The position numbers were made by a program, and so were the translations under genes. Under the pieces are notes generated by a model that had not been told where the DNA came from, did not search any database, and saw nothing but the letters and a program-made list of their open reading frames with translations. Below, piece after piece: positions 17,519-62,511 of a DNA stretch of 64,000 nt. Origin of the DNA: Sulfurovum sp. UBA12169 (GTDB lineage Bacteria > Campylobacterota > Campylobacteria > Campylobacterales > Sulfurovaceae); contig DLUH01000005.1 of NCBI GenBank assembly GCA_002742845.1, positions 1 through 64,000 on the forward strand. Direction: 5' to 3'. Position 1 is the stretch's first letter; the number at the start of each line of letters is the position of its first letter.

Positions 17519-18469
17519 TTAACTCAACGGTAGCATTTGTGGGATCTTCAGCCATACATCTTTTGCAAGATAAAGTCCGACCAATGTCAAAATAGCTGCA
17601 AATCTCAATAGCGTTGCATTGTCGCTTTTTATGGTACTTGCTGCCAAGAAAAAGGGGACAATAAACCCGAGTACCATACCAAACCAAAATTCAACATTGA
17701 ACTCTCCCCCCGCATGCACATAAGCCAAGGTTGCTTCTGCCTCTGAAGATTTGAATGAGAAAAAGTATTCGCCCATATACATCAGAAAACTTGCAAATAC
17801 GGCAACCATCAGCACCAGCGACAAATCTTTTCTCACTTCTTTATCCCAAGAACCCGACGATAAAATGAGCGCTGCTGATCCCCCCATTAAAGCCGCTAGC
17901 AACATTTGTGTCATCTCTGTAGGAGCCTGCCATAGTTCTCTTGCGCTTGATTCTGCCATAATAATCGCTGTATACATAGTTACAGGAATTGCTAAAAAAA
18001 CTACAAAAGGAAATAGCTTTTCATATAAACCGCTATTGTTTCTGGCCAACGCCGCAATCTTACACTTTTTGCCGCCCAATCCAGGGAAAGCGTCTGCAGC
18101 ACCGATAACCATTAAAATCGTCATCAAGAGTGTAAAAAGTGATGCCATCCATGCACCCACAGTAATTGCAGATGTCCAGTGTGGATGCAAAAATATATTG
18201 ACCATTCTATAAGGCTGGTGAAGATCCACCAAAGTAAATAACAAAAAAACATTCAATGCTACAAATGAAATAAGAGGCATAATCCATCTAAGATTGGGTA
18301 CCTCTTCTTTTTTATATTTATACAAAAGATAAGCCCCTACCATAACAACACCTGTTCCAATACTTTTTGCCCACATATTCAATGTGATCATCCACCCCCA
18401 AATAATTCCCGGAAGCGGAATATCCAATGTTACGACTGCCTGTGTGGCATGTATAGTATTCTCAACCAT
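17519..18469 (-). CDS. NrfD/PsrC-type membrane subunit of the oxidoreductase
   Basis: A 316-residue quinone-reactive membrane anchor with eight or nine hydrophobic segments. The N-terminal part (PGIIWGWMITLNMWAKSIGTG) and the loop LVDLHQPYR...HPHWTSAITVGAWM match the NrfD family. It should pass electrons from menaquinol to the Fe-S subunit. Its start shares one base with the stop of the Fe-S subunit gene (TAATG) and it has an unusually full ribosome site, AAGGAGG. The catalytic subunit gene starts 13 bp after its stop. Confidence 0.88.
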   Translation of the reverse strand: MVENTIHATQAVVTLDIPLPGIIWGWMITLNMWAKSIGTGVVMVGAYLLYKYKKEEVPNLRWIMPLISFVALNVFLLFTLVDLHQPYRMVNIFLHPHWTSAITVGAWMASLFTLLMTILMVIGAADAFPGLGGKKCKIAALARNNSGLYEKLFPFVVFLAIPVTMYTAIIMAESSARELWQAPTEMTQMLLAALMGGSAALILSSGSWDKEVRKDLSLVLMVAVFASFLMYMGEYFFSFKSSEAEATLAYVHAGGEFNVEFWFGMVLGFIVPFFLAASTIKSDNATLLRFAAILTLVGLYLAKDVWLKIPQMLPLS

Positions 18470-19221
18470 TAATGACCTCCTTCTTTTGATGTAGTTTGAT
18501 CGGTGCTAAAGTCCATAAAACTTTTATTATCGATTTTCTCATGCCCCACAAATGGCGCCAAAAATCTATCAAGTACGCCATGATGCGGATCACCGTTATG
18601 CTTAAGATGTGTCACATTGTTAAACAATCCGTATCCTTCAAGCCTCTGATGCGCAAGGGGATCAAGCGTTTGTGTTCCGCCGCCTACATAATAATGCTTA
18701 GGATTGGTATGTTTTTCTGGTTTGCGCACCTGTACTCCGCCTTGATGCTCCATGATATAGCGTGAAATATGGCTATGCTCATCTTCCACATCCCCAAAAA
18801 TATTTGCCTCCACCGGACAAGCAACCACGCATGCCGGCATCATACCGCTTTCTATTCTGTGCGCACAATAGGTGCACTTGTCCGCTGTGTTGGACTCTGG
18901 ATCCATATAAATAGCCCCATACGGACATGCCATCATACATCCTGCACAGCCAATACATCTGGCACTGTCAATATTAACAATACCATTTTCCAAATAATGC
19001 AATGCCGATACAGGACATATTCGTTCACAAGGAGCATTCTCGCAGTGGTTACAGCGCAATGGCGTAAAAGATCTTGAAGTATTGGGAAACGACCCTATAT
19101 CAATATATTTTACGCGTAGGCGCCAAGAGCTAAGTGGCACTTCATTTTCCACCTTACAAGCGATTTCACAACCTTTGCAGCCCATGCAAAGGTTGAGGTC
19201 AACTAAAAAACCCAGTTTCAT
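18469..19221 (-). CDS. Four-cluster Fe-S electron-transfer subunit of the oxidoreductase
   Basis: A 250-residue protein with sixteen cysteines in four ferredoxin motifs, starting with CMGCKGCEIAC (12-22), then CNHCENAPCERICP, CIGCAGCMMACP and CTYCAHR...CVVACP. This is the PsrB/TtrB/DmsB type. It carries no signal peptide, so it must be exported with the Tat-bearing catalytic subunit. Compared with usual relatives it has a His-rich C-terminal extension of about 90 residues (HLKHNGDPHHG). First gene of the operon; AAGGAG 6 nt upstream of the ATG. Confidence 0.9.
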   Translation of the reverse strand: MKLGFLVDLNLCMGCKGCEIACKVENEVPLSSWRLRVKYIDIGSFPNTSRSFTPLRCNHCENAPCERICPVSALHYLENGIVNIDSARCIGCAGCMMACPYGAIYMDPESNTADKCTYCAHRIESGMMPACVVACPVEANIFGDVEDEHSHISRYIMEHQGGVQVRKPEKHTNPKHYYVGGGTQTLDPLAHQRLEGYGLFNNVTHLKHNGDPHHGVLDRFLAPFVGHEKIDNKSFMDFSTDQTTSKEGGH

Positions 19222-60348: not shown

Positions 60349-61446
60349 TTACAGCTTCTCTTTGAGCGCCTGGATGCGACGATAGGCATTATCAATAGTT
60401 TCTTTTTTAATCTCACCGCTTTTAACCATCTGCGCAATTAGTCCGACCAAAGTTTTGGTGCTTACGGTTTTTCTCGGATCAAGCTGGTTTCCAAAAAGCA
60501 GCAGATCATTTCCCGCATTGATTGCCAGCTTAAGCGTATTTCTTAGACCATATTTTTGTGAGATGGCTCCCATTTGCAAATCGTCCGTGATTACTATACC
60601 ACGATAATCTAAATCCCGGCGTAATTTTTGAGTGACAGTTTTAAATGAAAGGCTTGCGGGATAATCCGCATCAAGCTTTTGATTGAATACATGGGCAACC
60701 ATAACCGTATCCGCTTTAGCTTTAAGAAGGCGGTAAGGTTCAAGCTCTATCTCTTTCCACACCTGAGTGACATCAACAAAGCCTTTATGCGTATCCCCCA
60801 AAGAAGATCCGTGTCCAGGAAAATGCTTGATAGAAGTAAGTACGCCATGCTGATGCATCGCATCAATAAATGCAGAAGCATGGGCTGCAACACTTTGCGG
60901 ATCTTTTCCAAAGGAACGTCCAAGTCCATAAATCACCCGGTTTTTAGGATTGATTGCCAGATCGACTACCGGCGCAAGGTCAAAATTGATTCCGACACTT
61001 TGCAGCTCCCGGCTCATTTTTTGATAAACAGTTTTTATTTGAGATGAATTCATTTTGCTGACTTGGGCAGCTTTGGGAAACCTGCCGTAAAAACCGTAAG
61101 CACTTTTAAGTCTTTGAACCTTTCCGCCTTCCTGGTCTACCGCAATAAGCAACTTTCCGTCTTGACTGCATGCTTGCAGTTCCTTTGTCAATTGGGCAAG
61201 TTGTTTTTTTGAAATAATATTTTTAGGCTTATTTTTATCCACCGGGTTATAATCAAATAAAATAACGGATCCCAGATTGTATCGCTTGATATCCTGGCAT
61301 ATCTGCGTATTTGCTTTTGCCGTAGTGCCATGAAATCCCACCATTAACATCTGACCTATGCGCCTCTCTAACGATAAGTCATCCTTTGCTATCAAACCAG
61401 AAGCAATACACATCATGTTCACAGCAAAAAATAGTTTTTTTAACAT
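60349..61446 (-). CDS. Secreted glycoside hydrolase family 3 (NagZ-like) N-acetylhexosaminidase
   Basis: A 365-residue GH3 enzyme with a signal peptide (about 1-20), which sets it apart from cytoplasmic NagZ. IDQEGGxVxR appears as VDQEGGKVQRL, the catalytic His lies in KHFPGHGSS and the nucleophilic Asp in VITDDLQMGAI. It should release GlcNAc from peptidoglycan fragments in the periplasm or outside. AAGGAG is 7 nt before the ATG, partly hidden by a hairpin at 61457-61478. Confidence 0.9.
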   Translation of the reverse strand: MLKKLFFAVNMMCIASGLIAKDDLSLERRIGQMLMVGFHGTTAKANTQICQDIKRYNLGSVILFDYNPVDKNKPKNIISKKQLAQLTKELQACSQDGKLLIAVDQEGGKVQRLKSAYGFYGRFPKAAQVSKMNSSQIKTVYQKMSRELQSVGINFDLAPVVDLAINPKNRVIYGLGRSFGKDPQSVAAHASAFIDAMHQHGVLTSIKHFPGHGSSLGDTHKGFVDVTQVWKEIELEPYRLLKAKADTVMVAHVFNQKLDADYPASLSFKTVTQKLRRDLDYRGIVITDDLQMGAISQKYGLRNTLKLAINAGNDLLLFGNQLDPRKTVSTKTLVGLIAQMVKSGEIKKETIDNAYRRIQALKEKL

Positions 61447-61488: not shown

Positions 61489-61652
61489 TTTTGATTATTA
61501 GTGTACGGTTAACCTTTGAAATGTATCATAACATTACAAGAGCATCCGGGGTACATATCCCACCCTATCTTGAAATATAATATTTTACTCCTCCTTATTA
61601 AAATATTTCCCTCCCTTTTATTCCGGATGCTCTTTGTAGATTAATTTAGACA
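61489..61652. repeat. Direct repeat copy 1 in the long non-coding region
   Basis: 164 bp, repeated as 162 bp at 61695-61856. The first 57 bp (from TTTTGATTATTAG to AGAGCAT) are identical in both copies; later parts differ by substitutions and a 2 bp gap. It is too long and only two-fold to be CRISPR, and there is no long open reading frame. The copies are separated by 42 bp of unrelated AT-rich DNA. Confidence 0.9.
61536..61652 (+). ncRNA. Candidate small RNA 1 with anti-Shine-Dalgarno loop
   Basis: Proposed transcript from near 61536, 7 bp after a TATCAT -10-like box (61524-61529). A closing stem pairs AAGAGCATCCGG (61538-61549) with CCGGATGCTCTT (61623-61634). Inside it, AATATTTTA (61579-61587) and TAAAATATT (61599-61607) form a perfect 9 bp hairpin whose whole 11 nt loop is CTCCTCCTTAT, complementary to strong ribosome sites (AAGGAGGAG). 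A second C/U-rich stretch follows. No strong T tract marks the 3' end, so the end is approximate. Strand is inferred from promoter position; the opposite strand would instead show GGAGGAG in the loop. Confidence 0.55.
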
Positions 61653-61694
61653 GCATTTTCTATCATATCCTTTTCACATTTTTATTTAAACGAT

Positions 61695-61856
61695 TTTTGA
61701 TTATTAGTGTACGGTTAACCTTTGAAATGTATCATAACATTACAAGAGCATTCAGGATGTCCATCCTGTACTGAAATATGATATTTTACTCCTCCTTATT
61801 AAAATATTTTCCCCCTTCCTTTTATTCTGGATGCTCTTTGTAAATTATTTTAGACA
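61695..61856. repeat. Direct repeat copy 2 in the long non-coding region
   Basis: Second copy of the unit at 61489-61652. Sequence identity is complete over the 57 bp presumed promoter and over the hairpin loop, and changes cluster in unpaired parts. It ends 73 bp before the next start codon. Confidence 0.9.
61742..61856 (+). ncRNA. Candidate small RNA 2 with anti-Shine-Dalgarno loop
   Basis: Same design as copy 1: -10-like TATCAT at 61730-61735, closing stem AAGAGCATTCAG (61744-61755) with CTGGATGCTCTT (61827-61838), and an 8 bp hairpin ATATTTTA/TAAAATAT (61781-61807) with the identical loop CTCCTCCTTAT. Compared with copy 1, stem changes keep pairing: one G-C pair becomes A-T on both sides, one C-G becomes T-G, and one A-T becomes G-T. 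An additional 7 bp inverted repeat (CAGGATG/CATCCTG, 61753-61768) competes with the end of the closing stem. Confidence 0.55.
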
Positions 61857-61895
61857 AATACATTTAATTGCACATTTTTTACATCTTCAATAGTG

Positions 61896-61901
61896 TATAA
61901 T
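61896..61901 (+). promoter_or_regulatory. -10 box of the TlpA-like gene
   Basis: TATAAT preceded by TG, 29 bp before the ATG at 61930. The gap 61447-61929 thus holds a nagZ-side promoter and hairpin, two repeat units and this promoter. Confidence 0.55.
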
Positions 61902-61929: not shown

Positions 61930-62511
61930 ATGAAAAAATTAGTAACATTGGCATTTTTGATCTTTTCTCTTTTCTCTTATGCGCAGGCACAAGAAATACC
62001 AAGCAAAGAACATGCGTTTACGATCACCGACATTAAAGGGATTTCTTATGAAATTAACGGCAAAGAAGAGGGTCTAGACATTAAAGGGCTTGAAGGGAAA
62101 ATTGTCTTTTTGGAATTTTTTGGGCACAAGTGCCCGCCATGCTTGGCTAGCATCCCCCATCTTATTAGCCTGCAAGAAAAATATAAAGACAGCTTAGCAA
62201 TCATAGCACTTGAGGTGCAAGGATATGACAATGCAAAATTATCTGCATTTGCGAAAGAAAAAGGCATAAATTATATTGCAGTATCTGAAGAAACAAGCGG
62301 AAATTTTGTTAATTATATTAGCCAAAGAGCCGAATGGAATGGAAATATTCCTTTTTTAATTGCGTTAGATACAAAAGGAAGCGTTCAGTTTATTCAAGCA
62401 GGAATGATGCCCGAAGAATCCCTGGAAGAACTCATCAGACAACTCACGCCCCCCACCATAGCGGAAACCAACCAAACCAACCAAACCAACCAAGCCGCCC
62501 AAACTAACTAA
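61930..62511 (+). CDS. TlpA-like exported thiol-disulfide protein
   Basis: A 193-residue protein with a cleavable signal (about 1-21, ending YAQAQ) and a thioredoxin fold. The redox motif is C-P-P-C in FGHKCPPCLASIP, with NIPFLIAL as the cis-Pro loop. The last 20 residues are low-complexity Asn-Gln-Thr repeats. The frame opens at 61900, but ATG 61930 has AAAGG 8 nt upstream and gives a proper signal peptide. A periplasmic reductase or cytochrome-maturation helper is likely. Confidence 0.87.
   Translation: MKKLVTLAFLIFSLFSYAQAQEIPSKEHAFTITDIKGISYEINGKEEGLDIKGLEGKIVFLEFFGHKCPPCLASIPHLISLQEKYKDSLAIIALEVQGYDNAKLSAFAKEKGINYIAVSEETSGNFVNYISQRAEWNGNIPFLIALDTKGSVQFIQAGMMPEESLEELIRQLTPPTIAETNQTNQTNQAAQTN

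Follow-up and report, generated by a model that had tools for sequence, protein, structure and literature searches.

Bacteria of the genus Sulfurovum are widespread chemolithotrophs that live at hydrothermal vents and sulfidic sites; no report of small RNAs in them was returned when the open literature was searched. Two direct repeats near the end of the window (bases 1-64000 of contig 5, the whole stretch that was analysed) raise the question of whether a pair of small RNA genes lies there, displaying an anti-Shine-Dalgarno (aSD) sequence as the original prediction proposed, and of what such RNAs would do in the cell.

The repeats and their candidate RNA family

The repeats, at 61489-61652 and 61695-61856, were recovered by a mechanical repeat search of the window, which together with their alignment bore out the predicted identity of the first 57 nt. 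They share a 62-nt block (61489-61550 and 61695-61756, 97% identity) and, 3' of it, a second block of 76 nt, and between both blocks the alignment displays point changes and short indels only. No third copy was found in the 1.86 Mb of the same genome, which holds two copies in total. On the plus strand, an RNA of 97 nt is predicted for copy 1 (61538-61634, 127 bits with the covariance model R1 described below, and supported by the covariation of the family) and one of 95 nt for copy 2 (61744-61838, 119.6 bits); these starts are close to the positions 61536 and 61742 first proposed, which they replace. The plus strand folds have z-scores of -5.3 for copy 1 and -4.4 for copy 2, with 0 of 200 shuffles as stable, and a closing stem of 10-16 bp, which comes to 16 bp when each repeat unit is folded. 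In copy 1 this stem is AAGAGCATCCGG / CCGGATGCTCTT (within 61538-61634, plus strand), from which the stem of copy 2 differs by G-C to A-U and C-G to U-G changes. Both minimum free energy (MFE) folds agree with the expected C/U sequence forming the exact loop of an AT-rich hairpin, itself enclosed by a longer closing stem. Indeed, CUCCUCCUUAU is the 11-nt loop of the inner hairpin in both copies (CTCCTCCTTAT, plus strand, 61588-61598 in copy 1 and 61789-61799 in copy 2), and the same folds leave unpaired a second C/U tract on this strand, which is CCCTCCC at 61609-61615 in copy 1 and CCCCCTTCC at 61811-61819 in copy 2. The loop of copy 1 has CCTCCTT in common with the 16S rRNA 3' tail of the genus, and its CCCTCCC is the counterpart of the C/U tract that is best conserved in the family.

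Rfam 15 gave no family match in the window at the gathering threshold, only chance-level matches (snoZ185, RsaB) over the repeats in a permissive scan (E ≤ 5), and no match where the sRNA lies in eight homologous loci. When 78 Sulfurovum genomes were searched at the DNA level, both clear and weak relatives of the repeats came up. As an exact 30-mer scan of named genomes produced no matches, a degenerate form of the promoter box was used instead, and the named records sharing it are mostly Sulfurovum. The covariance model R1 was built from 44 copies with 11 outer pairs as its only structure; these copies were chosen by their AAGAGCA/TGCTCTT stem and box, which inflates the conservation of the outermost pairs. 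Searching relatives with a covariance model, as had been suggested at the outset, turned out in favour of the prediction, with the family present in 73 of the 78 Sulfurovum genomes (38 of the 40 of good quality), as one copy in 48, two in 24 and three in 1. In a 299-genome sample of the order, covariance matches were confined to Sulfurovum, and among 175 genomes of the taxonomic family there was one clear extra case, in a genome of another genus (G389, E about 1e-3). This copy (L161) sits at the same place and has a closing stem of wholly different sequence (AAGGATATCGG/CCGATATCC), yet it retains the C/U tracts TCTCCTTT and TTTCCTCCTCCTTTT. By these searches the sRNA family is nearly absent outside Sulfurovum.

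Over 99 distinct copies, 96.4% of the closing-stem cells are paired and compensatory changes on both sides are seen in 8 of the 11 pairs, related copies being phylogenetically non-independent in these counts. The covariation score is 0.228 compared to 0.099 for shuffled alignments (0 of 500 shuffles equal it), and sliding the stem partners destroys the signal. Furthermore, G-U wobble cells number 46 if the plus strand is the RNA and 2 if it is the minus strand, hence the plus strand is taken to be the RNA. A coding RNA was rejected, given that 62 of 98 RNAs have no ATG and that predicted lengths across the family are 70-122 nt. This comparative support is strong, and it indicates that the repeats are members of a real RNA family, previously unlisted.

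Some loci depart from the common form. A shortened copy (L142:2537-2649, G071; 70-nt RNA) keeps the stem, box and C/U tracts and has lost most of the interior, a weak model match downstream of a full copy (L137:5677-5729) looks like a promoter-only relic consisting of box and -10 element, and a C-run followed by a T-run, possibly a tract of variable length, lies between the tandem copies of G007 (L112:5430-5470).

Unpaired CUCC tracts and their predicted action

The AT-rich hairpin with its exact loop is clade-specific, the inner hairpin of other clades differing in sequence and in place. The interior of the RNA is nearly G-free (7.9% G) and C/U-rich, and CUCC occurs 2.97 times per copy compared to 0.50 in shuffles, with an unpaired probability of 0.91 versus 0.51 for the rest of the RNA. 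Of 98 copies, 96 have one or more wholly unpaired CUCC, a conserved sequence complementary to the SD, 90 have two or more, and in 75 one of them lies in a hairpin loop. CCTCC is seen in 97 of 98 copies, with 33 expected under dinucleotide shuffling. This is not merely pyrimidine-rich sequence, since CTCT is found only 0.28 times per copy. Given that the 16S gene of the genome itself (G000 contig 5, 321571-323066, L188) contains Ns and misses its 3' end, the aSD tail was read from two relatives, where it is GGATCACCTCCTTTCA. Identical to this tail is CCUCCUUU (CCTCCTTT), which 57 of 98 copies carry, and the mean longest identity with the tail is 7.47 nt compared to 4.85 nt (maximum 6.86) for shuffled tails. 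As with the stem, these tract counts are taken over related, non-independent copies.

What these alignments and folds show to be conserved is a set of two or three CUCC tracts left unpaired, not one single loop. Hence, of the displayed aSD loop first described, the unpaired tracts hold throughout the family and the exact loop and AT-rich hairpin hold for one clade. Loss of the loop from otherwise conserved flanks, which had been named as evidence against the claim, was not what the homologues displayed, as the CUCC tracts are conserved. Strong support for plus-strand small RNA genes with a displayed aSD, as predicted, comes from the covariation, the direction of the wobbles, the place of the promoter, the conservation across the genus and the unpaired CUCC.

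The computation establishes the family with its strand, structure and conservation, where its promoter lies, its unpaired tracts and its gene context, whereas expression, pairing in trans, repression, targets and a controlling signal are inferred. The best explanation, with a probability of roughly two in three, is that the RNAs are Hfq-independent trans-acting aSD sRNAs which would block ribosome binding at selected mRNAs. Each repeat would be an independent gene for a plus-strand sRNA of ~95 nt, whose transcription would begin where the long closing stem has its foot. Enclosed by this stem is the near-G-free interior, in which two or three CUCC tracts copying the 16S 3' tail are placed in a hairpin loop and in a flanking single-stranded stretch. 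These tracts would pair in trans, without Hfq, with purine-rich ribosome-binding sites, and 30S binding would be blocked on those mRNAs whose flanking bases also fit, with the promoter box, probably an activator site, setting the timing. No Hfq gene was found in the 11 genomes searched, namely this one and ten relatives. Action directed at the SD is well grounded as a prediction.

The duplex energy of the tracts was calculated against the start regions of 1511 predicted genes. It is strongest over the SD, as expected for any aSD-like sequence, and the real tracts did no better than shuffled ones. The best single predicted target, a PAS-domain gene (C5:815556), was rejected because its complementarity is not kept in a near relative (G070). 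The NrfD-type gene (17519-18469) had been named as a fitting target. Its AAGGAGG is real and fits, being found at 18476-18482 on the minus strand, just upstream of the start at 18469; however, five other minus-strand AAGGAGG sites occur in the window, hence the motif alone does not make NrfD a target, and the choice gains no support beyond a good SD.

Two alternatives were weighed. In the first, which we consider unlikely, the sRNA would imitate the 16S tail in general, having up to three copies of the SD-reading sequence and favouring no one target; it would rival the ribosomes for the whole class of messages with a strong SD, and under one signal it would shift the translation programme cell-wide. 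The main rival to the aSD reading, given a similarly small chance, is protein titration, in which a C/U-rich and G-poor RNA would sequester a single-strand-binding protein (Rho, S1 or cold-shock-type) and not pair with mRNA. The G-poor, C/U-rich interior resembles Rho-loading RNA, and both the target signal, not above that of shuffled tracts, and a hairpin framework that evolves fast as the C/U content stays would suit such a sponge. However, the motif is specific, as the counts of CTCC and CTCT per copy attest, and the RNAs match the 16S tail over longer stretches than they match shuffled tails; Rho would have no need of CCUCCUUU.

Promoters and gene neighbourhood

Each predicted RNA is preceded on the plus strand by a conserved promoter box (TTATTAGTGTACGGTTAACCT, 61495-61515 in copy 1 and identical at 61701-61721 in copy 2), which is nearly invariant in 99 copies from 73 genomes and has the family consensus tTATTaGtaTtCgGTTAAcCTt, and by a -10 element TATCAT (61524-61529 and 61730-61735), a TATAnT-like hexamer at a fixed distance before AAGAGCA. 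The box spans about -43 to -23, the usual place of a -35 element, and the hexamer is most often found 8 nt ahead of the first stem base; in summary form the dedicated promoter is a ATTAGTnnnCgGTTaACCT box plus TATAnT. In this genome the box is found with 0-2 mismatches at the two repeat sites only. Transcription is predicted to start at the foot of the closing stem, from a dedicated promoter for each copy, and the box is probably a dedicated activator site. Only a short U-run follows the closing stem (mostly 1-5 T in 8), which makes the 3' end of the RNA uncertain.

In all 20 genomes inspected the sRNA lies between a divergent nagZ-like GH3 gene on the opposite strand (here 60349-61446, minus strand, Pfam PF00933) and a TlpA-like redoxin gene that shares its strand (61930-62511, plus strand, Pfam Redoxin/AhpC-TSA), which is followed by dprA at the inspected loci. 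Extra copies are either in tandem or ~3 kb off, where the gene that follows is that of a polysaccharide deacetylase (L105, L106, L115, L116), and one further locus (L132) has two copies with the same ~3 kb spacing. Among the genomes without an sRNA match, G011 gave no nagZ match, and G030 has nagZ with no TlpA-like gene or sRNA adjoining it within the stretch read. Several sister genera retain the divergent pair of nagZ and the TlpA-like gene and have no sRNA between them. The TlpA-like gene has a separate promoter (TTGCACATTTTTTACATCTTCAATAGTGTATAAT, 61868-61901, plus strand), conserved after the last sRNA copy and also in the sister genera without the sRNA, where it reads TTACACrATT.TTACA...TATAAT. 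This element or a near match is found at most 160 nt 3' of the sRNA in 74 of 99 Sulfurovum copies, a count in which the match may be spurious for first tandem copies. Since the sister genera possess both neighbours without the sRNA, together with this promoter, the sRNA gene would have arisen between old neighbours and would not be needed as their leader. Within 61868-61901 there is also an inverted TACAC...GTGTA pair, possibly a regulator site, which is kept throughout Sulfurovum and in part by the sister genera.

A cis element of the TlpA-like gene, whether leader, attenuator or riboswitch, would account for the constant position of the sRNA, immediately 5' of this gene and in its orientation, for the weak terminator tail and for the second-locus copies, which are also just upstream of a same-strand gene, that of the polysaccharide deacetylase. 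However, the TATAAT promoter of the TlpA-like gene is placed between the sRNA and the start codon and is conserved where the sRNA is absent, each tandem copy has its own promoter, and in several of the genomes inspected a copy is found at the second place, ~3 kb from the first. A leader was hence largely rejected, and the cis reading as a whole is quite improbable. More improbable still is that the opposite strand is the RNA, with GGAGGA loops acting as a CsrA-type sponge or as part of the nagZ leader: AAGGAGGAG does lie in a minus-strand hairpin loop of copy 1 (z -3.5), but the minus-strand folds are weaker (-3.5 and -2.2), the wobbles favour the plus strand, and box and -10 element are oriented to it. 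A repeat or mobile element devoid of regulatory function, which direct repeats with inverted ends might evoke, has next to no likelihood, since the position is fixed throughout the genus, which already contradicts it, the genome has only two copies and the stem has evolved by compensatory changes.

Relation to known small RNAs

A near-universal sRNA at a fixed position, with its own promoter code, would be of interest in a lineage where an Hfq gene was not found. It would also offer two comparative cases, one of an RNA function (unpaired copies of the 16S tail) being kept while the framework is rebuilt, the other of an sRNA gene arising between two old neighbours.

Among described RNAs, AbcR1 and AbcR2 (alpha-r15) of Rhizobiales are ~115-120 nt long, are encoded in tandem in one intergenic region, bind Hfq, and fold into three stem-loops in a row with two C/U-rich aSD motifs in unpaired regions, the Rfam model given being RF00519 (PMC7143759). 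The tandem genes and the two unpaired aSD motifs are alike; however, the Sulfurovum sRNA has one closing stem enclosing all in place of the three stem-loops of these alphaproteobacterial RNAs, and it belongs to genomes where no Hfq gene was found. RF00519 (AbcR/suhB) had no match in the window at the gathering threshold, nor over the repeats at E ≤ 5. The cuckoo/CcsR RNAs resemble the Sulfurovum sRNA in their C/U loops and in forming clusters of homologous stem-loop RNAs, and are less close to it than AbcR1/2. RNase E releases CcsR1-4 from a single ccaF1 (DUF1127) transcript, whose expression is driven by RpoHI/RpoHII (PMC10253847), whereas each Sulfurovum copy has its own predicted promoter. 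No DUF1127 gene was present among the scanned neighbours, which include the GH3 and redoxin genes in 20 of 20 genomes. Given the other neighbours, the separate promoters, the lack of Hfq and of any Rfam match, the Sulfurovum sRNA is judged not to belong to the AbcR family and probably not to the cuckoo/CcsR family either. The expectation that it is unrelated to cuckoo RNAs and to sRNAs of Helicobacter fits the missing Rfam 15 match and the other gene context, the cuckoo RNAs being set apart by description.

Within the Campylobacterota, CJnc230 of Campylobacter jejuni is a 98-nt, RpoN-dependent sRNA downstream of flgE, with two separate stem-loops and a single short motif, an aSD-type CCUU in a 12-nt single-stranded region (PMC11187230). 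It shares with the Sulfurovum sRNA the phylum and an aSD-type single-stranded segment; the latter differs by its neighbours and by a TATAnT-type promoter with a dedicated box. RepG of Helicobacter pylori, encoded between hp1043 and hp1044, uses the C/U-rich loop of its terminator hairpin to bind the tlpB 5' UTR at a homopolymeric G-repeat (PMC8295292). Here too an sRNA of the phylum has a C/U-rich loop for pairing, but the Sulfurovum tracts are located inside the closing stem and not in a terminator loop, and the neighbouring genes differ.
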